Virus record (IMG/VR): IMGVR_UViG_3300020190_000035
Location: 1-64,000 of that record
Origin: a virus
Strand: one strand, 5' to 3'
DNA: 64,000 bases
Within the stretch, counting starts at the first letter, position 1, and the number at the start of each line of letters is the position of its first letter. The position numbers and the translations under genes were made by a program. The notes below the pieces were generated by a model. It did not search any database. It was not told where the DNA came from and saw nothing but the letters and a program-made list of their open reading frames with translations. Shown in pieces: positions 3,001 to 37,433 of the stretch.

Positions 3001-5991
3001 ATCATCAATGTCTTCTTCAGTTATATCACTGATAGCTTCTGGATTTCGAAATCTCATTGCATCCCATTTTTTATTAACAGAATTAGTTTCAGCAGATGAG
3101 TATTTCGATTGAATCTCTTGTGTAGTTACGTCAGTCGAGGTTGCATTTGACACTGCAGATTTATATTCTTTTTGTTGTTCTTTCTTATTGTAGTTATATA
3201 GATAGGTATATTGTCTGACCATATTTCTTATATTAGAAACTTTTTTGTATATTAAAAAATTGAAGGTGTCTGTAAGGCCCTTCTCTTCATTCAAGATTGG
3301 TTTTTCTGACTCGTTGTATCCATCGAATCCAGCATTAATGTATTCTTTAACAGCTATATCAACTACTTCTTTTCTCTGCTGTGGATCTCTACTGCCTTCA
3401 AACCAGTCTGGTCCAAGTATTGCTGAAAAATCTCTTGTTGAGTTAGAGATTAAATAGTCATCAATTGTTTTTTTTGACTTTGAAGTAATAATACTAAAAA
3501 GTGGATCAGATGATTCTGAATCATCATCTGGATCTAGATTATACATTTGCTGCCATATATTTTTTACAGAATCATAATTGTGATAGCCAGTTCTAAACTG
3601 GTCCCATATTCCTTGGGCTTGACCAATTGTTCTGCCATTGCCAGCAATTACTTTTATTTCTGAATCAAACTTTTCATCAAAAAATGCTCTAGCCTGTATT
3701 GATACAGGATTATCTGCTGTATATACAGCGGCAAATTGCTCCCTATAATTACCAGCATTCTTAGCATCTGCGTCTTTTTCTAGAATATCTTTTAGATTAT
3801 CTTGCTCTAGATTTGAAAGATTATCATCAAAAATTTCAGAGAAGTAAGCTTTATAATTTCCACCATTATTCTGATCTCTCTTAAGAGCATCAGATGATCT
3901 GAGAAATAGTGACTCATCTGGAGTATAGATGAAAGACGGTCTTAGTCCTCCTCTTATCCCAGATCTAGTTTCACCTACAAATTCTCCCGCAACTGCAACA
4001 AGATCTCCCTCTTCCAGAGTTTGAAGATCTGTTTTCCCTTCTTTTCTATATACGCCAAATCCTATTAAGTTTGGCTGATAGCTCCCAAATGGACCAGTAG
4101 GAGTTCTTCTGCTTGCGCTAAATTCTTGAACAGGATTGACTGCAGTGGTCACTACTCCTAATGGAACTGAGTCAGAAACAAAAGTGAAATAACACTCAGG
4201 TTGACCAAGAGTAGATGGATCTCCCATTTTTTCTTTAAAGTCAGCTGTAGTCTTCATTGGAATAGTATCTAGAATGTCTTCATTGTCTGAAACTTCACCA
4301 AATGGATCTGAGCCACTAAGAGGAAAATTAATTTTTCCTTCATCGTTTATAATAATTTCTTCTAAGAAATACGCAGCGTCTGGAGATACTATTGCATCTA
4401 CATCTATATTCTCTCCCCACATAAAATATGCAGGAGCGCAAACAACTGCTCTTTTAGTGTTTGGATTATATACTAAGACTTTTCTTCTCTTATAGTCTGA
4501 TACGTTACCATACAAATCGCTATCGCTAAAGCCATATCTTTTCTTAAACATTTCTCTCATTTTACTATTGTCTTCGCCTGCTTTATAGGGCCATCTCATA
4601 GCAATATAGAATTGTTCGTGTTCTGCGTCTATTGGCATGCCCCACTCTTGAAAATCAAGACGTTGTTTCTCATCTGAAATATATGCGTCTTCATAAGCTG
4701 GGTCTAAATCTTGATAGACTTCAGAATAGCCTTTCGTAAAAGATATTTTTGCTTCTGATTCACCCTGGGAATTTTTATTATACGATATACTAGTTCCCTC
4801 TGAACCTTGTATAAATACTGGTAGCGGCATTGTTACTAGCAAGCTTGCCTCTACTCCAGATCTGGTAGTACTAGGTCTTAGTCCTGATGGATCGAATGCA
4901 GCGCTTTGTGCAGTAAAATAATCTCCACCTATTAATTTTAACTTTGATGCAAATGAAAAATTAAAGTCTAGAGACTTTTCATCACCTTTAGTTGTAACAA
5001 GAGATGTGTCTTTTCCATCACCTTTTTGATCAATCATCTGTTTTTCAATCAATGCAACGTCTACAATATTCGACATTGATCTTTGAATGTCATCTATATC
5101 TTCTATTCTTAGAATTTTATCTAAGTCAAGAGAAGGAAGAGTTCCACTTATTCTATCGGTAAAAAACGGATAACTATATCTGATAGGAAGCTGTGGAACC
5201 TGTTTGTGATCATCTTGAATTTCTCTTACAATACCACCAGAACCAAAAGGTAAGTGAAAACCAACTTGTACTTTACCTTTATTTTTAGGAAGCACTGAAA
5301 CAACTTCTACATTTCCAGTATCTTTAAATAAATTTATTCTTGAGTAATACTTTAATCTTTCTGGATCTTCAAGATCTATTACCGTACCACCAAGTCCTCC
5401 AGAAGAAGATTCAGCACTGGGTTTAAAAATTCCTCCGTACTCTGACATGTCCTTTGCAAAAGAAGCTAATGTATCAGACATTGGAGACTCTTTAAGCTGC
5501 AGAGCGGCTGCAGCATCTCCTAGTGGAGATGTTTCTTTATTAATAGAATTAAGTATTGACTTGAGATCATCATCAGCTTTAATGTAACCTGGAATATTAA
5601 CTCCATCTTTTTGCGCTTGCTCTTCTGATGGGAAGCCAGTTGAAATCGGAACTACACCAGATGTATACAGCCAATGTGGTTTTCCATAAAATATTGTTGA
5701 TCTATCTTCAAATGGTCTAACTGCAACTATATAGTTTGGAAGAAGTCTTGCACATAGCTGAAACATATCCCATACTGATCTCATGTAGGTTTGTGCTCTA
5801 AATGAAACTTCATCATAAATATCATCATCTGTATTATTTAATAGTCCCATAGTCGAAAACAGATTCTTGAATCCTCTGCCCGATAGAGTTTTTAAAAGCT
5901 TAGTTCCTAAAATAGCTCCACCTGTAGCCATTCCTATTGGTCCGTGCATATCTGGCAAGTGATACGGCAAGTGTACTAGTGGCCAAACCAT
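1..5991 (-). CDS. Giant baseplate hub-like protein with SNase-like domain (partial)
   Basis: Open for 1997 codons from an ATG at 5991 to the left edge, where it continues out of the window. The start has an AGGA ribosome site seven bases upstream and lies 92 bases inside the preceding gene, in another frame. Residues about 457-545 (RWPY, then RKVLVYNPNTKRAVV) recall RlpA-like double-psi barrels of phage lysin/hub proteins. Residues about 1327-1380 (GELLIIGNADIRPFDLVYLA, then YGIFEVEQVVHHF) resemble late-control-D hub domains. Residues 1494-1557 are a Gly/Ala-rich hydrophobic stretch. Residues 1687-1690 (DGDT) and 1710-1718 (RFEGIDTSE) match the staphylococcal nuclease active site. Inferred role: baseplate hub or cell-puncturing component. 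The hub assignment is moderately secure and enzymatic activity is untested. Confidence 0.85.
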   Translation of the reverse strand, partial: MVWPLVHLPYHLPDMHGPIGMATGGAILGTKLLKTLSGRGFKNLFSTMGLLNNTDDDIYDEVSFRAQTYMRSVWDMFQLCARLLPNYIVAVRPFEDRSTIFYGKPHWLYTSGVVPISTGFPSEEQAQKDGVNIPGYIKADDDLKSILNSINKETSPLGDAAAALQLKESPMSDTLASFAKDMSEYGGIFKPSAESSSGGLGGTVIDLEDPERLKYYSRINLFKDTGNVEVVSVLPKNKGKVQVGFHLPFGSGGIVREIQDDHKQVPQLPIRYSYPFFTDRISGTLPSLDLDKILRIEDIDDIQRSMSNIVDVALIEKQMIDQKGDGKDTSLVTTKGDEKSLDFNFSFASKLKLIGGDYFTAQSAAFDPSGLRPSTTRSGVEASLLVTMPLPVFIQGSEGTSISYNKNSQGESEAKISFTKGYSEVYQDLDPAYEDAYISDEKQRLDFQEWGMPIDAEHEQFYIAMRWPYKAGEDNSKMREMFKKRYGFSDSDLYGNVSDYKRRKVLVYNPNTKRAVVCAPAYFMWGENIDVDAIVSPDAAYFLEEIIINDEGKINFPLSGSDPFGEVSDNEDILDTIPMKTTADFKEKMGDPSTLGQPECYFTFVSDSVPLGVVTTAVNPVQEFSASRRTPTGPFGSYQPNLIGFGVYRKEGKTDLQTLEEGDLVAVAGEFVGETRSGIRGGLRPSFIYTPDESLFLRSSDALKRDQNNGGNYKAYFSEIFDDNLSNLEQDNLKDILEKDADAKNAGNYREQFAAVYTADNPVSIQARAFFDEKFDSEIKVIAGNGRTIGQAQGIWDQFRTGYHNYDSVKNIWQQMYNLDPDDDSESSDPLFSIITSKSKKTIDDYLISNSTRDFSAILGPDWFEGSRDPQQRKEVVDIAVKEYINAGFDGYNESEKPILNEEKGLTDTFNFLIYKKVSNIRNMVRQYTYLYNYNKKEQQKEYKSAVSNATSTDVTTQEIQSKYSSAETNSVNKKWDAMRFRNPEAISDITEEDIDDYLSQIKSPKQLFLFMVGIFRQKMWSDPYSRAWLVLRPDRKKEGGAFGLGLLAAPFTAGLSIAAGAAAELSIDHEEAWSFRPVDKIWQAFIDYNVNYASDDNAFKKLLQKNAKEGNSATNYLTGLKSDLGSFWDRNIGPIFSAFKSSLGGLLNMFQISMQQLGYGLSQLENFTQQANILNKAYNDSIYYSLGRPGSLLRAVDNPFTREYGEPVVEVREPFQRMHYISSFSHIISNNIKENIGGVATQITAVSDGKYPVTVALDKAAPPERQVEKTVETGIYFDNLKGSGITGFLHPLMHPLETIRGIAKSAAGEPDEITAKRVALSYLRESLKDIYGGELLIIGNADIRPFDLVYLADVYERMYGIFEVEQVVHHFTPQMGFVTSITPNAFVSVNDPSRWFMSSWIASHFSMQDLRNNTRLMLSAASNNNILTTNGDVSLNKISEGLRTQLTGAVQYTHGHSALVKDIVANQLAESIPDTKQRMEALIRQNTGKQHGSMGMAVFSALGMPAITVGVTAAVGILTMGAGAPAAAAATSALASGAFRTGVTAGVMALASDGVWGGWKKIRDNVLDQHGCYIQYLNKNGQPMDAGLSFNQGMVVGRYHSKKLLPGILGTRSFVRSSEGNMYIRADDIFKSFGWKEKEIGNLVRYISLENAIVHSQILKYSGIGPEKTALNEYFKSIVKVVHVKDGDTFEVEDILSSGTSNPIRYTVRFEGIDTSELAKMNVGAATGTDSFKTAIVNENSSAGKALRFVQEAVKGKLIVLRTNPKDPSMVIPVEDAYEPGSEQNRPENYAIAYKSSGQTYSEDRYMSTVFCRVSSNTYDKLYNELRGLFLRQRNNQFVQDFNETIKQDVKKMLYPESPSFVYFKQLYAALDSMSDLLEHFSATGQEDPLASGDSQLSEVEIRNFNILMNILLTNQMYQKASEWPIISWDEYYEDGSPITLNWELVINGLAKVYMDGIKYNNPRSVIGARDQIPRLVRVETNITESRESVGSGSGR

Positions 5992-8900
5992 TACTAGTTC
6001 CTGCAGCCTTTTTATCTTCTGGAACAGAATATAAGCCTTTTTGTCTGGCTTCTAGAGCTGCTGATGCATCAGGATTATTTGGAGCTGATTGAATTAAATT
6101 GCTCCATGTAGATCCAGACAGTCTATCTAGATATCCAAATTTTTCATCTAGCACCTTACTTTCATCGATTGATGCCAGTGTTGCCCATCCATCATCAAGG
6201 TCCCCACCAAGGAATTGTGCTACACCTATTCCATTACCTGGATATATATTTCTTTTAAATATTTCAAGATCTCTTTGAGTGCTAAAATTTGCCCAGAGAG
6301 TTTGCATAGCAGCAACTACCGGAGTTCTAACTGACCCACCTGCTGACTGCATTCCACGAAAATCAGTAATTGATCTGTCTGGAACAAGAGAATTAACACC
6401 AGGAACATTATTTAATAATCCAGTTGCTCCACCTGTGACTATGTTTGCTGCGCTATTCCATGCTAAACCAACAGTGCCTGTTATGGGATTGTTTCCTACT
6501 GCATTGAATGCATTAGTTACACTTTGTTTTAACATCTGTGATCTTTGCGCTTCCGCTTCTGTTAGTGGAGCATAAAGTATTGAACCAAAGTGTCTAATTC
6601 CAAATTTGTTTTCAGAAAAAACAGCTCCTCTGGTAGCATGTGCAAATGCTTCCCTGGTCCTAGAAGAGCCCATTGAAAGAAGTCTAATCATAAGGTCTCT
6701 AGGTTCTGACATCCAAAGACCAGTATTAATACCTCCGTCTATTTTGCCTGAATCACCTTTTTTGTTTGTTGAGTTGATAATCGGACTAAGCTCTATTGCG
6801 TCTGACTGAGCAACAATTGTAATAATCTCACCATGATCGACTTCAGTCACAATGCCATTAAATACAGTTTGAAGAGAATTTGGATTTGATCCATACCCAG
6901 CCCTTAGATGAACTCTAACTCCAGGCTTCATTCTCATATTTTGTATTTCAACCACATAAGAAGAATTCATGTGAGATCTTAAGTTAAGGGATCTAGTTAT
7001 TAATTTATCTACAATTCTTAAAGTGCCCTCTCTTATGCCTTCTTGAATTCGCGATTTATCTACATTATATATTTCGCCATTATTAATCAATGAAGTAAGA
7101 GTTTTTTCTGGCTTGCTCAATTTTGAGTAAGTATTGGAAATCCTCAGCACTAGTGTGTCGCCAAGTAGATCTTCTGATTGAACAATAGAAAAATCTATAA
7201 CAGACTGTAAACCATAGAAATTATCAAATAGTTTTACTCCAGCAAAAAAATTAGAATCATCTATGAGCCACAACATATATGTTGGAAATGCTCTTAGCAT
7301 TCTTCCAGATATATCTCTATACTGAGAGTCCATCATCATTTTTTGCCAATGATTTCCAACGCTTTGATTTTTTCCAGAAGCATTCACGGATTGCATTTTG
7401 CTTTCTGAAGTTCCGTATGCGTTCATGTAGCTATCTAGCGACTTTGCTCCAGGAATTCCAGTATGAACGTCCTGCTTTTCTCTATCAGGACAAGAGGTAT
7501 CAGATATCTTCATCGTCTGATTACCAGTTATTTTTCCGTTAATGTTTCTTCTAATATTATCTTCTGCTATGTAGAATCTTCCATCATGAGTATCGGAATG
7601 ACCAAATATATATCCACCATCTGGAGTCTGATAAATTGCCGGTATCTTACCAAGTTCATTTGAATCAGCCGCTGGTATGTAATGCATGATTCCAAAATGC
7701 TGCGAATCATCTGGATCAAAAGATGGCCTTGGATTCTTGTCGTTTTCCTTGATGCTGTCCTGTACAAGTTTATTAAATGCTTGTACTTGTTTTTCTACTC
7801 CACCAAGAATCTCAGATACATTAAGATTTCCGTACTTTGTCTTAAACTCTAAATCTTCAAAATTATATAGAATATCAGAATCATCTCTAAAGTTTTCAAT
7901 CATATCCTTCCATATTGTTGGATATTTATTAACTATATTTTGATCCCTAGAAAGACCCTGCTGTTCAATTATAGTATCATTTTGAGAGTCGTAAATTGCA
8001 ACTCTAAATAGTTTCATGGCCTCGTATGGATTTACTCCCATCTCTTTTAAGAGATAGTTTTTTACCTGTTCCATATCTCCGTTGCTAGAAATGAGAATTT
8101 CTTTTATCGAATTGACAATAGCTACAAAGTTTTCTTTTGATTGAATAGTTTCAGCTAACTTAGAAGTACTTTCCTGATCTATCTCAGGAATACTAAATTG
8201 ATCTGGTTCAAGCACATTATTAATTACATCATTATCAAACATTTCAAATGATCTAAAGTAAAAGTCTGGATCTAAAGATCCTACATGATCATTAGTGTCT
8301 GGATCTTTAATAGACAACGGCATATCTGGATATGTATTTATCATTGACCATCTTTGCTTCAGCCTGAGAAAAGGATTCCTCTTTGTTCCAAATTCCTTAA
8401 TGAGAGCAATCTGTGATTCAGAACTAATATTCTCTCTCTTTTGCTGGAATATATCAAAATCAACAAAGCCAAGTCTTACATTGTAGACGTGTGGATAACC
8501 AGGAATTGTATCGACATTATAAGATACTGGAAGAACATATTTGATTCCACAAAGAGCAGTAAGAATGTTTTTAATTCCCATGAAACCTATGACTCCAGCT
8601 GCCTGCTCTAGTCTTGCAAGTCCGCTTAAAAAGTCAAACATTCTTGTTAATTTAGCTAATTCTTTTTCACCAAAAACAGTCAATGACATATTAATAAAAG
8701 AATCATTACAACCTATATACTGAAATGTAGGTTCATCTTGCATCTGTAGTTGCATCTTTGCCATATTATTAGACAATGTAACTGCAACATTAGTTACAAT
8801 AACTGATTTTTCATCTAGAGAAACTTTCATCATGGGAACTGCCCACTCTTTTATTGTAAAACTTCCTCCAGTTTTAGCTGCATGAGCATCGAATATTTCT

Positions 8901-10759
8901 TTTATTCCCTCATCGCTGTAAAAGTTTTCATACAAAGAAACATGAAATGCATCAACGTATCGTCTTTCAACTTTTGCCTTAGTCTGTTTCCAAACTGCTG
9001 AATTTTGATCAGTGACTGGAGGAACTAGTTTTAAGCATTCTTCTTTAGTTGCTTCCTGTATTTGGTATTCAAGATATCCTTTGGGCATCTTAGCAAAAGT
9101 ATATATTTCATATTTATCTTGCTTTAACTTATTGGTTAGTTCAGGACTCAATTGACCAGGAACCTGAACAGACGGATCATCTGGAGACTTTTTGGTCTTG
9201 ATATAATCAATAACTTTTGGATTGGTTATATTATTATTTGATATATAATCTATTGCTAATGCATCATATACTTTGTCGTATATAGTTGAGCTATTTGATC
9301 CAGCTAGTGCTACTTGAACAATTTTTTCTGCGACTTTTTTATCTGACATAGTAAATTGACTAGACCTACTCAAATCTACAACTGTATCCAAACTTCTATA
9401 TAGTGCAGCTTCTGCTATATCAATTCCGATTTTTTTAAGAATTCCTTCCCAGAAAGCTCTACCAAGATCTGTTAAGTTTCTTTCTTCATCTGTTCTAAAT
9501 GCAGATACGTCTGGTGATGTAAACTTAGATTGTATTTGTTTTGGAATATAAAATTGAACATTGTTTCCATCAGTCCATTGCTTGTATATATTTGTTACAA
9601 GCTGGCCAGACAAAGAACCAACGTTATCATCTTTTACTATTGTTGCTCCTGGACCATTAATTGATATGACAGAAGAAAGTTTCTCTTCTTTTGAAGCGTC
9701 GTAGCTATCTGATGAAATTTCATCATCCGTTAAAAGGAACTCTTCATTTGCTGAATCAGCTATAGCATTAGCGGCTCTTCCCATGTAGAATCTATATCTT
9801 GACCAATCCACTGCCTGATTAAAGTCACTCAACATAGGGAGAAATGGCTTATGGTTAAACACCTTTAATTCTAGATCAACAGAGACAGCAAATGGAAAGT
9901 TAGGAATTGTAGAAACTGACATTGAAGAAAGAGCAACACCAGTAATATTAAATACAGAATTAAGATAGTGATTTCTAATTGGCAGAATTGGAGCATACTT
10001 GAATGAAGCTATTAATCCCCTGAGTGAAGAAAGAAATTTATCTATTTTTTCTTGTTGATTTGGATCAAGAAAATCTGTCTTAATATCGACGTTAAACTTC
10101 GATCCCAAATTCATTTGTGCAGCATCTTTTGCGGTAATGCCCCAGATCTCTTCATAGTTTGGAAAGAATAGTTTTAAAACTATGGTTGTTTCTTTATACC
10201 CAGCATTGAACTTTGGTGATGATTTTTGTCTAATTGCTCCACCTGTAAGACTTCCAGTTTTGAATCCTGTATTAACAGATATTGAGAGTGGTGGAACATA
10301 AAAATTAGATGCACCTAATCTAAGATGAAATGCGTCAGGAGTCTTAGGTGCAACACCAGAAGGCCAACCTATCTTTTTGATAGCGTCTTCTATCTTCATA
10401 GCAGTAATAAAGTTATCTACTGCCCAGACTGGCTTGAATACTGCCTTGCCATCTTGGTCTACTCCAAAAGATTTAAACATCTGCTCAATAATCTGTCTTT
10501 GATTATTAAGTGCGTCCTCTTCTGAATATCCATAATCCGCAGTAGCAGCAATTGCAGTTACAAATAAATTAAAAATTCTTGGAAAAAACTTATAAATTGT
10601 TGCTAATGCTAAAGGGTCTCTAACAAAATAATTTTTTACTTCTATTAATTTGTCCATCCAGAATACATCACGTTCTGGCTTTGTGTAGTCGGCTGCAGAT
10701 GATCTTAATGAAGTTTCTGAAGAAAATCTTTGTCTAGAAAACTCTTGTATTCCGACCAA
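5900..10759 (-). CDS. Large baseplate protein with gpD-like domain
   Basis: A 1619-residue virion protein following two small tail genes. Residues about 1270-1325 contain MKPGVRVHLRAGYGSN, then FNGIVTEVDHG and ITIVAQSDAIEL, a pattern of phage late-control-D / VgrG-type hub domains (beta-barrel with a G-x-V-x-V-x-x-G-Y strand). The rest is beta-rich and not recognised. The frame opens at TTG (10759), directly after a TGA and without a convincing ribosome site. The first ATG is about 35 codons later (WMDKLIEV), so the start is uncertain. The 5' end overlaps the upstream gene by 26 bases and the 3' end overlaps the next hub gene by 92. It probably forms part of the baseplate with the downstream giant protein. 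Confidence 0.85.
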   Translation of the reverse strand: MVGIQEFSRQRFSSETSLRSSAADYTKPERDVFWMDKLIEVKNYFVRDPLALATIYKFFPRIFNLFVTAIAATADYGYSEEDALNNQRQIIEQMFKSFGVDQDGKAVFKPVWAVDNFITAMKIEDAIKKIGWPSGVAPKTPDAFHLRLGASNFYVPPLSISVNTGFKTGSLTGGAIRQKSSPKFNAGYKETTIVLKLFFPNYEEIWGITAKDAAQMNLGSKFNVDIKTDFLDPNQQEKIDKFLSSLRGLIASFKYAPILPIRNHYLNSVFNITGVALSSMSVSTIPNFPFAVSVDLELKVFNHKPFLPMLSDFNQAVDWSRYRFYMGRAANAIADSANEEFLLTDDEISSDSYDASKEEKLSSVISINGPGATIVKDDNVGSLSGQLVTNIYKQWTDGNNVQFYIPKQIQSKFTSPDVSAFRTDEERNLTDLGRAFWEGILKKIGIDIAEAALYRSLDTVVDLSRSSQFTMSDKKVAEKIVQVALAGSNSSTIYDKVYDALAIDYISNNNITNPKVIDYIKTKKSPDDPSVQVPGQLSPELTNKLKQDKYEIYTFAKMPKGYLEYQIQEATKEECLKLVPPVTDQNSAVWKQTKAKVERRYVDAFHVSLYENFYSDEGIKEIFDAHAAKTGGSFTIKEWAVPMMKVSLDEKSVIVTNVAVTLSNNMAKMQLQMQDEPTFQYIGCNDSFINMSLTVFGEKELAKLTRMFDFLSGLARLEQAAGVIGFMGIKNILTALCGIKYVLPVSYNVDTIPGYPHVYNVRLGFVDFDIFQQKRENISSESQIALIKEFGTKRNPFLRLKQRWSMINTYPDMPLSIKDPDTNDHVGSLDPDFYFRSFEMFDNDVINNVLEPDQFSIPEIDQESTSKLAETIQSKENFVAIVNSIKEILISSNGDMEQVKNYLLKEMGVNPYEAMKLFRVAIYDSQNDTIIEQQGLSRDQNIVNKYPTIWKDMIENFRDDSDILYNFEDLEFKTKYGNLNVSEILGGVEKQVQAFNKLVQDSIKENDKNPRPSFDPDDSQHFGIMHYIPAADSNELGKIPAIYQTPDGGYIFGHSDTHDGRFYIAEDNIRRNINGKITGNQTMKISDTSCPDREKQDVHTGIPGAKSLDSYMNAYGTSESKMQSVNASGKNQSVGNHWQKMMMDSQYRDISGRMLRAFPTYMLWLIDDSNFFAGVKLFDNFYGLQSVIDFSIVQSEDLLGDTLVLRISNTYSKLSKPEKTLTSLINNGEIYNVDKSRIQEGIREGTLRIVDKLITRSLNLRSHMNSSYVVEIQNMRMKPGVRVHLRAGYGSNPNSLQTVFNGIVTEVDHGEIITIVAQSDAIELSPIINSTNKKGDSGKIDGGINTGLWMSEPRDLMIRLLSMGSSRTREAFAHATRGAVFSENKFGIRHFGSILYAPLTEAEAQRSQMLKQSVTNAFNAVGNNPITGTVGLAWNSAANIVTGGATGLLNNVPGVNSLVPDRSITDFRGMQSAGGSVRTPVVAAMQTLWANFSTQRDLEIFKRNIYPGNGIGVAQFLGGDLDDGWATLASIDESKVLDEKFGYLDRLSGSTWSNLIQSAPNNPDASAALEARQKGLYSVPEDKKAAGTSNGLATSTLAVSLARYARTNRNGYRWSYFRN

Positions 10760-11601: not shown

Positions 11602-14600
11602 CTAAAATCTAGAGGCTACCTCGGCATAGCGATCTTGCCCGAGGTTTGGAAGACTGTTATACATAGTACTGTTAATTGGACCATCTACCACACCGCCTAG
11701 CATTGAAGATAGATTTTCTGCTTGATCTGTAGATCCATTTAGATATACTTTATACTGCATTCCTACAGAAGATTGATTTGAATAAGAATATGGATTTGAA
11801 GACATTTCCATCTTTGGATAGTCCGTTTCATATGCGCTTCCTCCTGGAAGCATTGGAGGGCCTGTCATTTCTTGTTGCCCTCTCTCTTTCTTTGCAGAAT
11901 ATATAAAACCAAATGCTGCTAATGCTGCAGCAGCTACAACCGCAGTCTTTACGCCTTTGTCTCTAAAAGCATCGCCAAGTGCACCTGTTTTAAAAGAATC
12001 TTTAAATCTTTTATAACTTGTTCTTACCACAGAAACAGGACTTGAATTAACAACATTGCTTAATATAGTTCTCATAGAGTTATCTATCTGAACGTTGCTT
12101 GACTGAAATAAATCTAAAGCTTGCTGCTCTGCTTGCTGAACACTTCTAGAAGAAGTATAAAAATTGTACGCATTAATTACTTCTGGTGAACCATCCAAAA
12201 AGTCTGTTGCAGAATTTTTTCTAGTTCTTCCTGCTAATTCTTTTACTAAGTTGATTGCTTCTTCCTGTTGATCTGTTAAATCTGGAATTAAACCACTTGA
12301 ACGGAGTTGATTTATGATAACTGCATCTTCGCCTTTTCCTTTTCCTGTTAAAGACCTAAGTTCAGAAATATATTCTTTAGCTTGGTCTGCTGACATTTCA
12401 GTAATATCAGTTACGGAAGTAAGTCTCGATCCAGTAATTCGCTGTCTTAAGTCCTCAACAATATCAAATGCATTTGACATTCTTGACATAGCGTCTAGAT
12501 CTGTAGATCTCCTTTGCAGAACTGCAAGTCTTCTGATTCTAGACTGATTAAATAATTTTATAACCATCGCAACATCTGGATTATCTTCAGTTATCATTTC
12601 TGATTTTAATATAGCTGCAACGGTTACATCTTTTTGTTCTAGTAGAGCATCAAATGTATCAACTATATCAAGAACGCTTTTACCAGTTGCTGTAGCTGCT
12701 TGACTTTGCTGTATACCAAGAATTGCTTCTCCTATTTTGGTATTAAGTTCAATCCTTAATTTTCTTAATTGATATATCTGTACATCAGAAGTATTATTAA
12801 GCATTTTTTCTATTTTTGATATTTCTTTTATATTTTTATCATATTTATCAATTACTGCTTTAACTTTTCCTGTATACTCTGGATCAGCTGTAGCTGTCAT
12901 ATTAAGAGCTTCTTGTCTTGCTTTTCTAAGAGAAGAAGACTTTGTTAGATCTGCAGTCGCTTGTATTTCTTTCATCATTTGAACTACTTGATCATGCTTT
13001 GCATATTTTTCATAGGCCTCTGTACCCTGTCTCATAAAAAAACTATAAAGAGCACCGCCTGTTATTTTACCATCTCTGATTACAAGTCCTTTTTCTCCAG
13101 ATTCGAGAATTTCAATTTGCTGCCTCAAATACTCTTTTACTTGATTTTCTGCTTGATTACTTAGATTTAGTCTTTGCTTATTTGCTTCAACATATTCCAA
13201 AAATTCATTAAAGCCTCTTAGAATGTGTACTCTAATTTTTTCTATTTCTTGTTCGTTTCCAACCCTTGCATAGCCAGTGGCTCTTTCAAAGAGACTTCTT
13301 TCAAGACCGAAAAGTTGATCCTCATCGATTGAACCTGTAGAAAGAACTTGATCTAAAACTTGTTTTCCTCTTGCAAAAGATATACCAGCTTGTGACCTTA
13401 ACATATTTTCTCCAACAGGTGACAATCTAAGCGAAGCTCCTTGACCACCAGCTAAGGCAATTCTTTCTTCCTCAGACATTGAGTCAACATATGCCTGCCA
13501 TACTTTTTCTGCTACTTCGTCTGATATACCCTGCTCTATTCTAATTGCTTGTGCTGCTCTAGAAAAATGATCAACTTTTAATTGTAGACCAACAGATTTT
13601 GCTATGTCGACGGCGTTTGAAGCAGAAACAGTAAGGAATGCAGACGATTTTTGAAATGCTTCATAAAGTGCTCTATCTCCACCCCCAATAATAGACGCTG
13701 CTGCATCCACTGTGTAGGTAGCCATTGATTGTCTATTAATAAATACGCCAATTGTATCTTCAATTCCTACATTAGCTGCTTGTTTTTGAATTAACTCTAA
13801 AAACTTTTCAGACTCTGCTGCTATAATATGTTCTATGCCACGGAAATATCCTGGTGCATTCTTACCAAGAACAAGTTGTGAAACAACTTCCATTTTTTCT
13901 TCATCTGTTGATCCAGAAATTTCAAAACCAAGCTTTCGTTCAAGGGATGATATTAATTGAGCAGTTCTTTCATTTTCTCCTTCTGCTTTAAGAACCTGAT
14001 AAACAAGATCAGATTGATATCCAGGGGCAACACTGTTAGGATCGATTCCTAACTCTGTTGCCATTTGAGCAAATGGCTTTCCTGAAGAAGTTATTGCATC
14101 AAGTCCCAGCATTGATGGACTTTGAATCATTGCCATTTTAACCATTTGCCTTGGAGTTAATTCTGGAAGCAAAGAACCGTAGGCTTTTTCTTTGATTTTT
14201 ATAATTACTGCTTCAATATCTTTTAAAGGTGTATTAGGAAGAATAAGTTCATCTTGTTTTCTTGAGCCTATAGCTCTTTTTATTCCATTGATTATGGGTG
14301 AGTCACTAGATATTCCTATTTCACGCAAAGCTTGAGGATCATTTAAAATAGATAAAAACTTTTTATCTTTACCAAGAGCAGCTTTTAATGTTCCATGATG
14401 TCTTAAGTCTGCTGACATAGCAATTGACTCTTGAAATGCTGTTGGCTGTCTTAACGTCATAAATGCTAGTCTTTTTTTGCCTGATGAATCAGTAAATGTT
14501 GACATCAAAGGAACGCCTTTGTCGTCCAAGTCGAATCCACCAAGAGAGTGCTGATATAGATAAGCTGCCTCACCAGCCAACATCATTGCCTTGCCCTTGA

Positions 14601-15882
14601 TTCTAAATCCTAATAAGGGAATTTCTGATGGATTACTTACTGGCGTCGTTAACCCTGTTAGTTTACCGTAGCCAGGTTGTTGTACGAAACCACTCGGTGA
14701 ACCGTACCTTGCTAGATCTACAGGTATTCTAGCAACTTCTTTTTGGAAATCTTCAAAGCCCAAAGCTTTATCTAATCTAACGTCAAATGTTCTAAGGTTA
14801 TACCTATTTGCTGTTGGCATAATAACCTCTGCTCTTCCGTCTTTCAATCTAACAACTTGAGCGTTGTAATAGTCAGTTATTCTTCTTACTAGTTGGGGTA
14901 TTTTTCTTGGATCTACACCTGAAGCTAAAAGTCTTTGAATGTCTTGAGCTTCATTTATTCTTTTTAGATGTGAATATTGATGACGAAATGGTATTCTATC
15001 AATATCTTCCATGCCGCCAGGAATCGATAAAGCTTCTGTACGTATCTGCTCAATGACAGCTTTTGGTATCGCTTCGATTGCTGCATCTCTGGTAGCAGCA
15101 CCCATAAATTCATTGGTTTTACCAATGCCTTCTAAAGCATTTTGTCGCAAAATTCGAATCATGTTTGGCTGCATAAAATATTCACTGTGACTCAAGAACA
15201 TTAGTGGATCGGTAAATACTTGATCTCCACCACTTCCAATATTCATCAATAAATTTCTTACTGCATCAGTACCAACTTCTGTCTTTACTGCTGATGAATC
15301 TGCTATTACATAAGGTATTAATCCATCTTTAAGTCCAAATATTTTTTCAGCTTTTTTGGAGCCCATAACCATTGCTTCACCCTTGAATTGACCAGCACCT
15401 AAATTAATTCTAGTAATTACATCATCATTTCCTTGGACTTTTGCAAGAACCCTACCTATGCCGTCTACGTCTTTTTGCAAGGCTATAATCTGCTCCATGA
15501 CATCTTCGCTTAATCGTCCTGCATTTTTTAACTTATCTATTTCAGATTCATAGTGAGACTTTATGTCGTAAAGTAGTTGCGTTGTCACAATGAATTGTCC
15601 GTCATTACTTTTTTCTAATCCAGTGGTCATAGCTTCTATTTTTTTATCAATGCCTCTAAACATATGACCAGTGCCAGCAGACGTTGTCCCTGCTATGGTT
15701 GCTGTTCCCGGAACGTTGTTAATTCTCTTTGAATTAATTGTATCTCCAAAGATTCTTCTTGTAGCTGTTGCTAGAGTCTCTCCTGGTCGCATATCTCCCG
15801 CTCGTGCTGCAGATTTTGATTGCTGCCAATACTGTCCAAGAATATCTATTTCTTGATCAGTAAAGCGATACAACTGTCTCAT
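11602..15882 (-). CDS. 1426-residue virion protein, possibly DPBB-polymerase-like
   Basis: A very large protein starting at ATG, one base after the preceding stop. Two segments are suggestive. Residues 161-203 contain GAGQFKGEAMVMG (Lys167) and ADSSAVKTEVG (Lys200). Residues 447-457 contain LGGFDLDDKGV. The order and roughly 280-residue spacing recall the lysine barrel and D-x-D metal barrel of single-chain QDE-1/YonO-type RNA polymerases, but the usual third aspartate (DxDGD) is a lysine here. Long charged coiled-coil-like helices fill the middle. One transmembrane-like segment (AVVAAAALAAFGFIYSA) lies about 110 residues from the C-terminus. Its place after the tape measure suggests an internal virion or ejected protein. 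The CDS is certain and the enzyme identity is speculative. Confidence 0.85.
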   Translation of the reverse strand: MRQLYRFTDQEIDILGQYWQQSKSAARAGDMRPGETLATATRRIFGDTINSKRINNVPGTATIAGTTSAGTGHMFRGIDKKIEAMTTGLEKSNDGQFIVTTQLLYDIKSHYESEIDKLKNAGRLSEDVMEQIIALQKDVDGIGRVLAKVQGNDDVITRINLGAGQFKGEAMVMGSKKAEKIFGLKDGLIPYVIADSSAVKTEVGTDAVRNLLMNIGSGGDQVFTDPLMFLSHSEYFMQPNMIRILRQNALEGIGKTNEFMGAATRDAAIEAIPKAVIEQIRTEALSIPGGMEDIDRIPFRHQYSHLKRINEAQDIQRLLASGVDPRKIPQLVRRITDYYNAQVVRLKDGRAEVIMPTANRYNLRTFDVRLDKALGFEDFQKEVARIPVDLARYGSPSGFVQQPGYGKLTGLTTPVSNPSEIPLLGFRIKGKAMMLAGEAAYLYQHSLGGFDLDDKGVPLMSTFTDSSGKKRLAFMTLRQPTAFQESIAMSADLRHHGTLKAALGKDKKFLSILNDPQALREIGISSDSPIINGIKRAIGSRKQDELILPNTPLKDIEAVIIKIKEKAYGSLLPELTPRQMVKMAMIQSPSMLGLDAITSSGKPFAQMATELGIDPNSVAPGYQSDLVYQVLKAEGENERTAQLISSLERKLGFEISGSTDEEKMEVVSQLVLGKNAPGYFRGIEHIIAAESEKFLELIQKQAANVGIEDTIGVFINRQSMATYTVDAAASIIGGGDRALYEAFQKSSAFLTVSASNAVDIAKSVGLQLKVDHFSRAAQAIRIEQGISDEVAEKVWQAYVDSMSEEERIALAGGQGASLRLSPVGENMLRSQAGISFARGKQVLDQVLSTGSIDEDQLFGLERSLFERATGYARVGNEQEIEKIRVHILRGFNEFLEYVEANKQRLNLSNQAENQVKEYLRQQIEILESGEKGLVIRDGKITGGALYSFFMRQGTEAYEKYAKHDQVVQMMKEIQATADLTKSSSLRKARQEALNMTATADPEYTGKVKAVIDKYDKNIKEISKIEKMLNNTSDVQIYQLRKLRIELNTKIGEAILGIQQSQAATATGKSVLDIVDTFDALLEQKDVTVAAILKSEMITEDNPDVAMVIKLFNQSRIRRLAVLQRRSTDLDAMSRMSNAFDIVEDLRQRITGSRLTSVTDITEMSADQAKEYISELRSLTGKGKGEDAVIINQLRSSGLIPDLTDQQEEAINLVKELAGRTRKNSATDFLDGSPEVINAYNFYTSSRSVQQAEQQALDLFQSSNVQIDNSMRTILSNVVNSSPVSVVRTSYKRFKDSFKTGALGDAFRDKGVKTAVVAAAALAAFGFIYSAKKERGQQEMTGPPMLPGGSAYETDYPKMEMSSNPYSYSNQSSVGMQYKVYLNGSTDQAENLSSMLGGVVDGPINSTMYNSLPNLGQDRYAEVASRF

Positions 15883-15883
15883 C

Positions 15884-16900
15884 TCATCTTGATAATTTTG
15901 AATTCTTCCGCGTTAGTCCATCTCCTGAACCAACGTTTAGATATTGTCGTTCGGATTGTTCCAAAGATCTCACGTTGCCACTAAATGCTGCTTCAAGTTT
16001 AGATGCTACTCTATCTATTACAAGCATTCTATCTTGGAATAAGATATTATGCCTGATAGAAGGTATTCCAAAAGCATCAAGAGTATCAACTGCCCTATCA
16101 GCTTCCGACATACTAGAGGTCAAGCTGTATAAATCACCTCCAAAAGCATAAGTAATTTTTGACTGATCTAAGAATTGTGATATAAAAGTTTCGCCAATTG
16201 AAAAGTCTCTTGGAGATATATAGCTTTGCATTCTCTTTGCAATCTTTGCAACGTCTGCCCAATTTTTAGAACCATCTTTTTGTGCTACTTTTTTAAATAA
16301 TTTTGATAAATATTCTTTTCTTATTGGAGAAGCTCCAACAACTGATTTGAGAAGTTTTGATTGTTCTCCAGTTAACTGTAGACCACTTTCGGAAAAATAT
16401 TCCAATATTGAATAACCTTCATCGGTTATTGATACGGTTGTTCTCCTACTTTCGTCAATTGTTTGATCTAAAGCTTGAATAACTCCTTTTTGATTATTCT
16501 GAGTGTTTGACTTATAAAATTTAGCTCCTATTGAAGTTCCAGCTAAATGGCCTAAACCAACATCTGTTAGCTGTTGCATTTTTACTGGATTAGATGCAGC
16601 TTCTCTTAAAAAGTCGTTAACAACTTTTACTTCACTTGCTAATTGATTTGCACCTCGAGTTACAGAAAAATTATTAAAAGGACCTTCTGACGTAGCAGAA
16701 GAAAATATTCTAAAATCTATTAAACCTAATACGTTGACAGAATCAAATGCATCTGATATTTCATCAAAAGATTGACCAGTTACTTTATTAACATATTCAA
16801 TTTTTCCATCTGACTCAACAACATCAATTGCAAATCTATATTTTGGAATAGAAGTTAATGCTCTTCTTGCAGTCTCTAATTTAGGATTTATATTAGTCAT
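15884..16900 (-). CDS. Unknown 338-residue tail-region protein
   Basis: An ATG start two bases after the tape-measure stop, ending one base before the 1426-residue gene, so the three are surely co-translated. Mostly alpha-helical sequence with segments such as RTTVSITDEGYSILEYFSES and KEYLSKLFKKVAQKDGS. No catalytic motif, signal peptide or membrane helix was recognised. It could be an internal tail protein, a chaperone or a partner of its large neighbours; only its location supports this. Confidence 0.8.
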   Translation of the reverse strand: MTNINPKLETARRALTSIPKYRFAIDVVESDGKIEYVNKVTGQSFDEISDAFDSVNVLGLIDFRIFSSATSEGPFNNFSVTRGANQLASEVKVVNDFLREAASNPVKMQQLTDVGLGHLAGTSIGAKFYKSNTQNNQKGVIQALDQTIDESRRTTVSITDEGYSILEYFSESGLQLTGEQSKLLKSVVGASPIRKEYLSKLFKKVAQKDGSKNWADVAKIAKRMQSYISPRDFSIGETFISQFLDQSKITYAFGGDLYSLTSSMSEADRAVDTLDAFGIPSIRHNILFQDRMLVIDRVASKLEAAFSGNVRSLEQSERQYLNVGSGDGLTRKNSKLSR

Positions 16901-16902: not shown

Positions 16903-19900
16903 TTATCTAACACCAGAATATATATCTATACCAGAAGATCCAAAACCATTTAACACTGGAACAACATTTCCACTAATTCCATTTCTGGACATCATCATTC
17001 TTATTTGAGCAGCAACGTTTTCTGAATCTTGTTCTTTTTTAAATTCAGGATAGCTTGGATTGACCAGTTCTGCTTCACGCACCTGTTGAGGATAGTAACC
17101 CATTTGGGACATATTAATTCCCATAGATTCTCCCATTTTTATTTTAACATGATCCATATTTGTATTTGGATGCCAGCCTTCCCATCCAAGGTCTGGAAGT
17201 TCATGTCTAGAGAAGTATTCTACAAGATCTGGTCTAGACTCTACTTTCATTCCCCAAGCTGCTTCATATATTCTTCTTTCAAGTCTTGGAGCAGTAGAAA
17301 GAATCCTTTCTCTTTCTTGAAGTGGAGCATTAATCATTGCTTTAAAATGTTCACGTTTTCTTTTTGGAATTGCCAAAGATAAAGTTTGTACAGAAGAGTT
17401 TTCTAAATCTGCTCCATACATCGTTCTTTTAGCAGCCTGGCTAAATTGAGCTGCTGCGGCCATATCACCTTGAGTTTTTGCCTCGTTTGAAAGCCTAGTG
17501 TTTTTTACGTAACTTAATATATCAATATACTCTTCAAGAGCAAGTTGTTTTTTTCTTTCTTGTGGCATAAAGCGTTCGCCAGTAATTGCTTGTTTTGTTT
17601 TCGAATACAAAGAATAACCAGCTCCAGTAGTAAAACCTATTAAAGAACTTCCAGTTTTTGCTTTGGGAGAACGACCAAACTGAGACATTACTCCTGACAT
17701 AACCAAACCGCTAGTTAAAGGATTTCTTCCTTGACTTTTATATAACATTGGTTTGATAAAGCTATCTATTGGGTTTTGCCACTCTGGGAATGTTGCTCCA
17801 TATACATTTCTTCTTTCCCAATCTTCTTGTGCAGTTCTATCAGAAAGGAGTTTTGTATTTATAAAAGTATCTCTGTGAGCTATATATTCACCAACTCTAC
17901 CAAGAGTGAGTGCTGATATAGATAAATTTAATTCTTCTGGACTTGAATATTTATACTTATATTCACTAAAAGTATATTTTGTTGTTGCCTCGTCAACTCT
18001 GGCTCTGATTTCTTGCAGCTTCTCTCTTTGACCCGGATCAATAGATGCCATTGTAATTTGAGTATTGAGTTTTCTAAACTGCTTTGAATAAGGTGCAATA
18101 TCGCCCAATATATCTAGTTGAGTAATTGGATCATTATATCCAGACATATCAGGATTAAGTCTTTCATACCCAATACCTGGAAGCCTAAGCTCTCCTTCTT
18201 GCACCCTAGTAAATGGATCACCCTGTTGGAAATTCATAAAATAGTCGGCACCTGGTAAAAATGGGTACTTTATTCCCATTGTATTTTGAATTGGGTTTAT
18301 ATAGTTAATATCTGTTCTTTCTTTAGGAACAAATCTTCTAACTATTTCTGATATTTCAACATTACCAAGTGCACCTTCAGGCTTAATTGGTATGTCTCCC
18401 AAACCACCTAGATTAAGATCCCAGAATGCTCGTGTTGATCCATAGGCTTTAGATGCAGACTGCAGCATTGACCTCTGAGGTTGCAAATCTCCTTGTCCAA
18501 ATCCAAATTTTTCTCTTAGAGAAGCAAAAGCAAATCCATATATACCAGCTGTCTCCTGCAGTCTATAACCAATTTCTCCAGATACCATTCCAAATCTGTT
18601 AGACTCAACTGGTTGACCAGCTGCTACAATTCCTGGAGGAACATTACCTGGCACTGGTGGTGGACCAAACTGTGCTGCTTGAACATATATGTTATTAATA
18701 TTTGCAATTGATGAATTAGAAATTCTACTTGCAGTTTGCAGGGGCATTCCGCCCATGTATGAAAGTCTGGAGTTAGCTTGAGATATTTGATTTGCTACTG
18801 GACCATAACCTCCACCAGTGCTTGATACCAGTGCAGATCCCCCCTGGCCCATAGCTGGACCAGATATTCTTTGAACTCTACCACTTGAAATCAAACCCTG
18901 AGGATTATATGCACCGCTTTGACCAGCAGAAACATATTGACCTAAAGCACTGATTGTTTCTTGCTGATGCATAAGCCTTTGTGGCTTAAGAAGTTTACCA
19001 AAAGTTGCATTAAGAACTGAAGTAACCGGACCCCATGGTCCAGTAAAATATTCGCCAGTTGTTGGATATGGTCTATCATAATATTGTTTTTCTTCAAACC
19101 TATAAGGATCAAACGGCCTTAAGGGAGAAAAGTCATATCCAAAAGCAAATCTTTCTAGTGGACTACCAAACGATTCGCTTGTGTAGTTTGCGCCAGCTTG
19201 AAGCCTCTTATAATAAGAAGGCCTATAATACATGACCTTTCCACCCTTAAATGGTGTAACACCAAGTGGCCAGTATCTACCTTGTCTGATTGGAACTTCA
19301 CCTTCTAAGAGTTGTTCCTTTTTTTCCTCATAGGACATGCCACCTGGAGTAATTCCAGACAATACTGACTGTGCTTCTACTGCAGATCTTGCTAGCTTGC
19401 TAGTAAAATAAGGAGAGTAAACCCTTTCTCCTCTTCTATCTCTTTCATTTGCAAGTCCGCCTATTGTCCTATCTGCAGTTAAAAGTGCCGTTCCTCCAAG
19501 AACTAATGGAACTGCTCTTTTGGCAACCATTCCACCCGCATAAAGAGACATAGGGCCAGAATACTTTGATTCATCAAGTCCTAATCCAAATGTCTCAAAG
19601 TATTTATTTAATCTTTGAACACCATGAGAAACTGGCACAGACGCGGCACTGAATGCCTCTGCGTCTGAATATGTTGAAAATCCTAGTGCGCTCTTTGCTG
19701 CTCTACCAAAACCAACAGAAGAAACAACAGTTCCAAATGTTGGAACAAAAACTGTGCCTTGATTACCTAGTTCATTTACTGCTGTCTCTTTTAGTCTATA
19801 TTCTGATGGCTTAAATGTTCTTGAAACAAATGGCCTAAATATACTAATTACGTCATTTCCAATTCCACCGGTTCCAACGTTTACTATATTTTGACTAATA

Positions 19901-22900
19901 AATGGATCAAGCAATGTTGCAAAACTTTGAGAACCTGAATCTCTTATTGACATCAAGCTTTTTAATGCTTGCGTTAAGTTCTCTGATTCAGTTGCTGATT
20001 TTTTATATCCCCTAAATGCCACAAAGTTTAATACAGATGAAAGACCAGCTGCTCTTGCTTCGGTAGCTTGATTTTTGCTTATTATGTCTCTTGATAATAG
20101 CTCTAATATTATCTGTTCTATGTCAATTACAAATTGACCAATGTCTACATTTCCAGTATTTTGTGCAGCAGCAAATGCTCTTCTTTGTAGGGCTAATTGA
20201 AATATAGCTTCTCTTAATTCATCAACTTTTGTTGTAATAGTCGGAGAAGTTGCAACTCTTGGTGACATTTCATCTAAATCAAATTCCTCTAACTTAGATC
20301 TGACGACTCCCATTGATGCTGTTAGAGAACGTGTATCAACCGATTGAGAAGAAACTGCAGCAGAAGTTGCTTGTGCTTTCTCTATTTCTTTTACAGCAAA
20401 TTCTCTCATTTCAGCTTGAGACCTAACTTGACTCAAGTTGATTCCCTCATCCGAACCACTAAGTATATTTCTTAAGAAATTTTCAGAACTATACTTTTGT
20501 TCTGCTCCTCTAATGACTGGAACAGGAGTACCATATGATTGTATTCTTCTTCTGAAAGATTCATAGGCTCTGAGCACTTCTTGATGGCCATATACTTGAT
20601 CTCCAGACTCATCAACAACCTTCAGTAGATTATCTGCTTCACTTGTCAATGAGAGAGTGGATCCTCTTTTAGTTTCTACGACTTCATTTCTTAATAGCTT
20701 TCCAAAGACAACTGGATTATATAAGTCTTGTCGTCTTTGCCTGAATCTACCAAAGTATCTTAAAAGTGAGTTGGGCTGTTCTTCTGCTACATCAAATCTT
20801 CTTTGAATTTTTTCTAAAATAGATAAACCAGATTGTTCTTGCTGACCTGCTTGTGGAAGATTCTGGTTTATTTGTCTACCAGCAACAATTCTTGCTGTTC
20901 TTGAAAACATATCGTTTTCATTTGTAGCGAACTGTCTAAAAGTTCCAGTTAGTTTTGATACTTTTTTAGCTAATGAATCTGAAGTTCCACTGATAGAATA
21001 TATTGATCCAGTTGGGCCAAAAAATCTTCTTCTTTCCTGCGCAAATACGAGTGCACTGGCACCTTCTGATGCTATCTGACCAAATGGCTGAAAGGAAAGA
21101 GATGGAACCATAGAAAATATGTTTCTATGATCTATTCCTTGCGGTCCACCATAACCAATCATATCCAAAGGATTAAATTTGATAATTGGTATTTGCAGCT
21201 GATCTCTAACGAAATTCATTGCACCAAAAGCTGCTGACCTTAGCCTGGTTGTATCTATTATATTCCCAGACTGAGTTCTGTAAACACCCTTAAGTTCTGA
21301 ATAACCTATACTAGAAGAAATAGGATCAGTTCTTGCTATTTCGCTTGCTAATCCTTCGATAACATTTGTTTGATTATCATCGAGATAACCAAACATTCCC
21401 ATATCAAAAGCTTCATCAATTAATAAAGGCTTTAATCCAAATAAGTTATAACCTTCTTTTGATGTAGAAGAGGTCATTCTCTTCTGCTGCATCAGGAATG
21501 CTCTTAATTGACCAATATTTGATATATCTATTCCACGCCTAGCTAAACTATCACCAATAACAGCCCTAGATACTCTTTGTCCATTTTCGTCTAATAGATT
21601 TATTCCAAGTTCATCTGCTGCAGACCTTGCTAGATAATCTGCTTTGTCTTGTGATATATCGCCTTCAAAATCTTTATACAAAGCTTTTTGAGCTCTGACC
21701 ATTTTCCTACCAGTAGGAATAGCTACATCATCATAGAATGCGCTCCATGCTCTATTTATTTTGGCTTTTAAATTTTGTTGAAATTGTTTATTAGCAAAAA
21801 GAACATCTGTTAAAATAACAGCAGATTCAAATGCTTCAGGAGTAAATGTTGCATCTGCTATTTTTTCTAGTTCATTATCTCTACTAATAACTTGTTTGAA
21901 AAAATCTTGTGTATTATTTTTGTCAATAATTTTAGTTGCGCCAAATTGCATTCTTTGGCTTATATTTTCTGCAGAACCGTATGATCTAGGGATACTGACT
22001 AAACCAACTTTTTTAATAAATACGTCTGCTGTTCCTTCATTGACACCATTAGAAACAAGATGTCTGTATAGAGCTTTTTTATACTCTTCAGTTTCTATCT
22101 CTTTTGCGAATTTTCCTTGACTAAGACCTTGTCCAGCAATTGCAGAAGGACCCATAAACCTAAGAATAGAGTTAGAGTAATCAGAGAATATACTGCTGTG
22201 CAGTGATCTCACTTGCTTAATGCTAGAAGCAAGAAGCTCTTGAGGATTTGCTGATCTAATTCCACTAACAGCGGCTAATCCTTGATCATAAGATATGGCG
22301 CCATTGACAACATCATACGCTGTTCTAGCTGCTTTAAATCTTGTTCTAAATTCTGCTACACCAAGAGTAATACCCTTTAGAGATGGAACAGCATCGGCAA
22401 AACCCTGGAGTCTTGTTCCATGATCTATATGCCCAACATTTTGAATCTCATAGCCAAATAGATAAGCTTTTACTGAAGCTGCTGCTTTTCTTAACTTTCC
22501 AGCTTGACCTCCAGCACCTGCTGCTGCACCTGCTTCACGAGAACCTCTTCTAGCCTGTCTCATTGCAAAGACAACGTTGCCTTCTGCAGCTCCTCCTTCT
22601 TTTACTGCAGTAGCAAAAGCTGCAGTCATAGCTGTTGTATTTCTTGTTAGCGAACCAACAACTTTTTCTACATCTTGACCAAAAGCAGAAAGGATTGTTT
22701 TCACATCTAGAATTGCATTAGAGAATTTTGTTTGTCTAGCTGTTAATCTTAAGTTTGGATTCTTAGCTGTTGGAGCTGCAGCTAAGAACTTGATTCGAGA
22801 AATTGCTGCCCCACCCAAATCAAATGGCGTAAGCATTGTTGCCATATTAATGGCAGACTGCTTAGAAAAGTCTGCTATAACATCTACTGGGTTATACCAT

Positions 22901-25864: not shown

Positions 25865-26596
25865 CTACCTAACGTTTCTTGGAGCTTTAGGTTGTGGTGG
25901 AACTATTCTATCAATTAATTCAGTATAAGACTTGAGTGTTTTTTCAGAGTAGAAATTCTTCTGCCTTTGAAGATACATTGCTCTTTCATCATTAGGCAAA
26001 AGTAGTGGATCTGTTTCCATGCTTACTAATGGCTGAATTCCTCTTGCCATATATACATATGTCTGCTCAGTAATTAAGTCATCAACAGACATTGTCTGAC
26101 CTTCATCTACTATAGTAACGCCATAAATTTTCATTTTTGCACCGAGGCCATACTCATTAAAAAAGCTAAGAACGATATCAAATGGCGGTAACATATCTGC
26201 AAGTGGAGCAAAAAATAGACCTGTTTCAGACATCATTTGTCTGAATTCTCTAATCCTATAAAAAGCATACTCGTTAAAGACTGTGAAGATTAAAGACCCA
26301 CCTATTGTTCTTCCACCCTTTATAAAGCCCCTTGGATTTACGTGGCCAATTGTTCTTACTGGTGCATTTTCTCTGTGGACTGAATATGATATTGTTTGTA
26401 GTTCGCCAAGATTAAGAACATCTGTTCCCTCTATTGTTCCAGTATCTCTGTTGATTGCTGGTATTACCATTGCTGCGGAGATATCGACGCCAGCAAATGA
26501 CATGTTTGAAAAAGGATCTGGAAGATTATGATCTATTCTATATTTTGAAAAAGAACCTTCATCATAATTCCAAGAATTATTTTTGTTAAACATCAT
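25865..26596 (-). CDS. Tail tube-like protein (second paralogue)
   Basis: A 243-residue paralogue of the next upstream 235-residue tube gene. Shared features include a segment like ISYSVHRENAPVRTIGHVNP followed by RGFIKGGRTIGGSLIFTVFN, and a C-terminal region PPFDIVLSFFNEYG / VDEGQTMSVDDLITEQTYVY. Tandem tube paralogues occur in several myoviruses, one making the tube and the other a tip or junction ring. The ATG start (a double ATG) lies after a hairpin terminator, so it is probably expressed less than the upstream tube gene. Confidence 0.8.
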   Translation of the reverse strand: MMFNKNNSWNYDEGSFSKYRIDHNLPDPFSNMSFAGVDISAAMVIPAINRDTGTIEGTDVLNLGELQTISYSVHRENAPVRTIGHVNPRGFIKGGRTIGGSLIFTVFNEYAFYRIREFRQMMSETGLFFAPLADMLPPFDIVLSFFNEYGLGAKMKIYGVTIVDEGQTMSVDDLITEQTYVYMARGIQPLVSMETDPLLLPNDERAMYLQRQKNFYSEKTLKSYTELIDRIVPPQPKAPRNVR

Positions 26597-26604
26597 TATC
26601 CTTT

Positions 26605-26647
26605 ATAAAATAAATGTGGGGACTAGAAAAAATCCAGCCCCCACATT
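26605..26647 (-). terminator. Hairpin terminator between tube genes
   Basis: Arms 26613-26621 and 26639-26647 form a perfect nine-pair stem (AATGTGGGG / CCCCACATT on the transcript), followed by TATTTTATAAA. It lies in the 73-base gap between the two tube paralogues. It probably stops most transcripts leaving the abundant 235-residue tube gene and passes a fraction to the downstream paralogue. Confidence 0.65.
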
Positions 26648-26669
26648 ATTTAAATATAATATTTAGATT

Positions 26670-33680: not shown

Positions 33681-33681
33681 A

Positions 33682-34791: not shown

Positions 34792-34805
34792 AGAATATTC
34801 AAACC

Positions 34806-35612: not shown

Positions 35613-35620
35613 AATTTTCC

Positions 35621-37427: not shown

Positions 37428-37433
37428 ATAATT

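Follow-up and report, generated by a model that had tools for sequence, protein, structure and literature searches.

A putative divergent two-barrel virion RNA polymerase, with a rearranged metal loop, in a ~200-kb tailed phage

The window analysed here, 64,000 nucleotides of the IMG/VR virus record IMGVR_UViG_3300020190_000035 (positions 1 to 64,000), carries in its tail block a long open reading frame (ORF) for a protein of 1426 amino acids (aa), next to a separate gene for a protein of 338 aa (Table 1). The 338-aa protein matches the N-termini of the long ORFs of relatives in jackhmmer searches (E 2.8e-104 for L011 and 1.1e-86 for L010), most of which have both parts fused. Judging from sequence comparison, we consider it very likely that the two genes of this tailed phage (~200 kb) together encode a virion RNA polymerase of a divergent two-barrel type. 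The original prediction had placed such a core within the 1426-aa virion protein, and it is supported by invariant residues, by a motif order shared with the phage polymerase YonO and with RNA-dependent RNA polymerases (RdRPs), by paralogs, and by the position of the gene.

Table 1. Features of the putative polymerase genes, their neighbours and their paralogs. Coordinates refer to the window unless another record is named.
Feature	Coordinates	Strand	Remarks
Putative virion RNA polymerase main chain, 1426 aa	11602..15882	(-)	Both proposed barrels and downstream conserved region
338-aa protein, N-terminal part of putative polymerase	15884..16900	(-)	Own gene in the window; jackhmmer
D94-G95	15598..15603	(-)	Invariant; counterpart of DG motif in YonO (HtDGcG) and eukaryotic RdRP
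R158	15409..15411	(-)	Counterpart of Arg preceding KG: YonO MvRlPwvKG, RdRP QIRYGGYKG
K167	15382..15384	(-)	First catalytic Lys, proposed barrel B
K200	15283..15285	(-)	Second catalytic Lys, proposed barrel B; SSAVK vs YonO SQFK, RDR2 SMLKF
R360	14803..14805	(-)	Closes P-x-x-R segment ahead of barrel A; RDR2 NPCLHPGDIR
Metal loop GGFDLDDK (448-455)	14518..14541	(-)	D451, D453, D454 invariant
R478-x-P480-x4-E485	14428..14451	(-)	Strictly conserved stretch after metal loop, 61/61; RSPNGYGE in paralog A
G712-x3-N716	13735..13749	(-)	Counterpart of RDR2 DTLGVIST, YonO NIGEYSN; probably first helix of trigger loop
D759 in NAVDIAK	13606..13608	(-)	Counterpart of RDR2 AVDFAK, YonO IDYAK, crAss VDNAK
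C-terminal hydrophobic segment (about 1313-1330) and GPPMLPGGSAYE (1341-1352)	11827..11946	(-)	Conserved
2221-aa neighbour	16903..23568	(-)	Tape-measure-like position; homolog of MTATph1 1949-aa protein and KLEB27-3 gp031/gp033 structural proteins
1619-aa neighbour	5900..10759	(-)	Hub-like; homologs are a putative baseplate protein (KLEB27-3) and an endolysin (MTATph1); phrog_20474 E 7e-86
Paralog A, 872 aa	G001:51189-53804 = L294:13189-15804	plus	Single further long ORF from family profile, E 5e-4
Paralog B, about 810 aa	G001:35633-38059; L316-L319	plus	GGxDxDD; separated from paralog A by about 15 kb; more distant

The stretches that first drew attention to the protein, QFKGEAMVMG (K167), SSAVKTE (K200) and LGGFDLDDKG (D451, D453, D454 and K455; 14518-14532), all lie in ORF 11602-15882 on the minus strand, at the residues originally given. 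A scan with the 1426-aa protein alone returned identical copies only, and neither the 50,697 sequenced phage records nor the bacterial and archaeal genomes searched contained a homolog. Relatives were instead reached through a neighbour: with its conserved beginning as an anchor, the 1619-aa protein led to 80 viral loci, most of which encode a relative of the 1426-aa protein upstream of the anchor homolog. A second scan brought the collection to 153 distinct rows, with 91 distinct loci holding both motif regions. From these we used an alignment of 61 rows (A3; 826 columns, 16-42% identical to the 1426-aa query) and a second, larger profile alignment with up to 96 rows covering the metal loop.

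Only 11 of the 826 columns of A3 are strictly invariant: D94, G95, K167, K200, D451, D453, D454, R478, P480, E485 and D759. Both lysines are present in 59/59 rows (K200 also in 95/95 rows of the larger alignment), the three aspartates in 61/61 and 96/96, and D94 and G95 in 57/57 each, with 93/93 and 92/93 in the larger set. R158 (56/59), R360 (59/60), G712 (58/59), N716 (54/58) and D759 (54/54) are likewise retained in A3. The chance that four of the residues singled out beforehand would fall among the invariant columns is about 2e-8, or about 9e-6 if only Lys and Asp are counted. The spacing of these motifs is a different matter, as 52% of copies obtained by shuffling the 1426-aa protein match KG-x25-40-K-x220-290-DxD; spacing by itself is thus not above chance, and the value of the original observation becomes visible only with relatives. 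The Gly following K167 is not conserved across the family, nor is the A-K of the D.AK motif. K200 and D451 share one ORF in 84/91 distinct loci and are separated in 7, and in 19 loci a later split sets D451 apart from G712 and D759. The proposal of a single-chain core holds in that K200 and D451 lie on one chain, although the window has a gene of its own for the 338 aa of the N-terminal part.

The metal loop is where the original prediction requires correction. It had read K455 as standing in for the third Asp and had suggested that the enzyme may be divergent or inactive. K455 is found in 51/61 rows, whereas D454 is invariant, so that the triad is D-x-D-D. The loop is indeed divergent, but with D454, which never varies, as its third Asp, there is no sign of an inactive enzyme. 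In the arrangement that we propose, barrel B would supply K167 and K200, and barrel A would supply the D-x-D-D loop, its third Asp shifted by one residue towards the N-terminus relative to the usual D-x-D-x-D. A structural or ejection protein derived from a polymerase but no longer catalytic would account for a Lys at the usual third-Asp position and for a gene among tail proteins. We regard this as very improbable, because complete retention of K167, K200, D451, D453 and D454 in every aligned row would be unexpected without catalysis, and because the non-structural paralogs described below also keep DxDD.

The interpretation of the 1426-aa protein as a polymerase draws further on its likeness to known two-barrel enzymes. 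YonO relatives and solved RdRPs share, in order, DG (in YonO), R-KG, SxxK, P....R, D-x-D-G-D, G-x-x-x-N/T and D-x-A-K; matched by eye, the counterparts in the 1426-aa protein are D94-G95, R158, K167, SSAVK200, P..R360, GGFDLDDK, DTIG712VFIN716 and AVD759IAK. YonO itself, a single-chain two-barrel protein of SPbeta-like phages, has DG, R..KG, SxxK, P....R, FDxD(x)DK, GxxxN and D.AK in this order; unlike the 1426-aa protein it has DxDGD and is encoded outside a tail-gene block, and its profile similarity is insignificant. The eukaryotic RdRPs QDE-1 and RDR2 present QIRYGGYKG, SMLKF, NPCLHPGDIR, GGDLDGD, DTLGVIST and AVDFAK in the same order, but they have DxDGD and are cellular. In gp66 of the crAss-like phage phi14:2 (PDB 6VR4), also a large virion protein beside giant structural proteins, the two invariant lysines, a metal loop (GSDFDIDK) and a D-x-A-K motif recur, with the third Asp in its usual place and an insignificant profile comparison. 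Of the known enzymes to which the protein had been likened, the nearest in motifs are YonO and RdRP, rather than crAss gp66. The 1426-aa family accordingly shows the two conserved barrel-B lysines upstream of the metal motif, the ordered accessory motifs and, in most loci, both barrels in one chain, while a literal DxDxD (usually DxDGD) is replaced by D-x-D-D throughout.

Other polymerase types were also compared. The jumbo phages phiKZ and AR9 have multisubunit virion and non-virion enzymes (PMC7598289); a virion and a non-virion enzyme are likewise proposed for the lineage of the window phage, and in some relatives of the 1426-aa protein a split falls between the Lys motifs and the Asp motif. 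Five relatives, however, gave no match to the beta and beta-prime domains PF00562 and PF00623, which were matched in 14/14 controls. No match was obtained to PF00940 (T7-like single-subunit polymerase), for which the control genomes gave none either, or to PF05183 (eukaryotic RdRP) in 13 related phage records.

The family does not stand alone within its phages. A near-identical genome of 202 kb encodes two smaller, non-structural paralogs with the DxDD signature of the 1426-aa family. Paralog A carries LLDGGFVIS, RIFTPEGVIKG, NLKKE, GGHDQDD, RSPNGYGE, GRFVN and AID, and has homologs, 47-69% identical, in 11/17 related records; paralog B was found in several of these. In profile-profile comparison the 1426-aa family is matched by the merged paralog set at E 1e-11 (probability 97%), and by a set of paralog B only, whose five rows each have DxDD, at E 1e-9 (96%). 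A further subfamily, C (L320, L326-L331, related records), has HDTWDQDGD, with the canonical DxDGD in 7/7, and matches paralogs A and B at E 1e-21 and 3e-24. Because A and B match significantly on both sides, the DxDD proteins are tied stepwise to proteins with the textbook loop, and a gap-free alignment of the loops places an Asp at the Gly of DxDGD and another residue at its last Asp. As the literal DxDxD test fails for the 1426-aa family and subfamily C has DxDGD, we classify the family as a divergent variant that is connected to the two-barrel superfamily through its homologs, not as a canonical member. It is probable, in our judgement, that these proteins form an undescribed two-barrel lineage in which DxDGD has been rearranged to an active DxDD, with up to three paralogs per phage (one virion, two non-virion) and a DxDGD sister subfamily in relatives.

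One member of subfamily C (L320:16-3411, in G020) has an N-terminal extension that weakly resembles 2OG-Fe(II) oxygenases (PF13640, E 0.036, below the cut-off). A small ORF after paralog A (L294:15776-16060) carries LGGYDLDDK in its 60-aa coding part; it is unlikely to be a polymerase fragment, as its homologs match mostly over the first ~42 residues, before the motif, which is probably there by chance.

In the predicted structure the order of strands is compatible with the two facing double-psi barrels proposed. With the alignment, AlphaFold modelled residues 75-900 with a predicted local distance difference test score (pLDDT) of 82 and a predicted template-modelling score (pTM) of 0.82, whereas the single sequence of residues 1-643 gave no usable model (pLDDT 38). 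At both motif sites the model has a strand-strand-helix-strand unit. In the first unit K167 lies on the second strand, and in the second the D451-D454 metal loop lies between the helix and the strand. Such an order of elements is expected of the double-psi barrels of RNA polymerases.

Several results weigh against a polymerase. Foldseek returned no match for the model in the PDB at E <= 0.001; RNA polymerase II and Escherichia coli RNA polymerase chains appeared only at E 5.6-7.6, with a template-modelling score of about 0.06, and among viral models three uncharacterised phage proteins without a function were matched. Our confidence is not higher mainly because paired barrels are still a prediction. 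Pfam, PHROG and PDB sequence searches with the 1426-aa protein gave chance matches only, none convincing. The DxDGD loop, from which DxDD departs, has been described as universally conserved (PMC7598289), and the direct match between subfamily C and the 1426-aa family is weak (34%, E 4e-4). Nor does the family match the crAss gp66 or YonO profiles significantly (hhalign, E 0.08-0.5), but the positive control, YonO against crAss, fails likewise (E 0.06-0.2), so that nothing follows from this comparison, which lacks power. In the study of P23-45, too, polymerase families were reported to be without similarity outside the DxDxD region (PMC10770324). The merged paralog profile reached a top score of 31.6 against YonO, compared with 21.7-24.9 for reversed decoys; the result is insignificant and the metal loop is misaligned, and the alignment pairs KGLL, GxxSN and ID unaided.

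These insignificant fold and profile matches could also be read as signs of another enzyme that depends on metal, perhaps a nuclease or a nucleotidyltransferase of a different kind, that is injected with the DNA and whose Lys and Asp motifs resemble those of a polymerase by coincidence. The ease with which the raw spacing arises by chance points the same way, as does the apparently accidental LGGYDLDDK of the unrelated 60-aa ORF in the 202-kb genome. We nevertheless consider such an enzyme unlikely, given the agreement of the complete ordered motif set with YonO and RDR2, the existence of the DxDGD subfamily C, and the presence in one phage of a virion-module copy together with non-structural copies.

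The surroundings of the gene suggest how a polymerase might reach the host. The 1426-aa gene sits in the tail block between the genes for the tape-measure-like and hub-like proteins, the former matching the 1949-aa protein of the Moorella phage MTATph1 and gp031 and gp033 of the Bacillus phage KLEB27-3 (phmmer, E 8e-83, 4e-29 and 1e-42). In KLEB27-3 the same slot, between the homologs of the 2221-aa and 1619-aa proteins, is occupied by gp034 (2434 aa, L005:11460-18764), annotated as a structural protein. Unlike the 1426-aa protein, gp034 carries VNRYPTINQSTIQAM and ADYDGD, an unannotated Rpb1-like metal loop (PF00623, E 0.015, below the cut-off). It was rejected as a detectable homolog, as the family profile misses it and the slot alone is shared. 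In MTATph1 this slot holds a 1309-aa protein (L004:11721-15650) that matches RNase_T exonuclease (E 5e-5) and lacks a DxDGD motif; a short stretch is common to it and the start of gp034. The C-terminus of the 1426-aa protein has a hydrophobic segment and GPPxLPGG..YE, a motif that occurs in 74 distinct ORFs, with a hydrophobic stretch before it in the 12 listed; this segment and GPPMLPGGSAYE may possibly contact the membrane or an ejection channel.

Elsewhere in the window, two adjacent genes (25865-27377) match phrog_9206, 'major head protein', and are probably tail-tube proteins, because they adjoin the sheath gene; tail tube is also their annotation in KLEB27-3. A capsid-like gene is found apart from them, at 52119-53177. 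Families of 2OG-Fe(II) oxygenases (phrog_61) are locally expanded at 32739-38552, where they are matched by at least four genes next to one another.

A phage that carries one polymerase and makes another is not unprecedented, as virion and non-virion enzymes are known from P23-45 (PMC10770324) and from jumbo phages such as phiKZ and AR9 (PMC7598289). P23-45 resembles the window phages in combining a virion-module copy in the tape-measure region with a non-virion paralog (PMC10770324). Its virion enzyme, gp96, is fused to the tape measure, in contrast to the separate gene pair of the window phage; gp96 and the non-virion gp64 have DFDGD and DYDGD, whereas the window lineage has DxDD and a third paralog, and there is no detectable sequence similarity. 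By analogy with P23-45, crAss-like and phiKZ-like phages, and from the position of its gene, the putative polymerase would be packaged and injected. A copy in the tail block together with smaller copies elsewhere in near-identical and related phages suggests that these phages bring in an enzyme of their own and make the others later. From these comparisons we infer a fold, a polymerase activity, packaging and a division of labour, as follows: the polymerase would travel in the tail tube or close to it, next to the tape-measure-like and hub-like proteins, would enter the cell with the DNA and would transcribe the first phage genes, and transcription of later ones would fall to the two smaller paralogs, produced inside the cell.

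Perhaps, instead, a two-barrel polymerase has a role other than early transcription, for example the synthesis of replication primers while the phage enters the cell. Simple word counts in the 202-kb genome found no early promoter word above shuffles, which would agree with such a role, and function beyond the core is a prediction. Those phage enzymes of the single-chain two-barrel kind that have been characterised, YonO and P23-45 gp64 and gp96, do transcribe DNA into RNA (PMC5467207, PMC10770324), and we think a role of this other kind quite doubtful.

Cell-type RNA polymerases have all been described with one three-Asp loop, DxDGD or DxDxD. If our interpretation of the 338-aa and 1426-aa proteins as a virion RNA polymerase is correct, a third Asp moved by one residue across a phage lineage would offer a natural experiment at the active site that transcription conserves most strongly. 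Virion two-barrel polymerases, known from P23-45, crAss-like and phiKZ-like phages, would then also occur in a large group of ~200-kb phages that are uncultured, and their presence would explain how phages of the type found in the window could begin transcription independently of the host.

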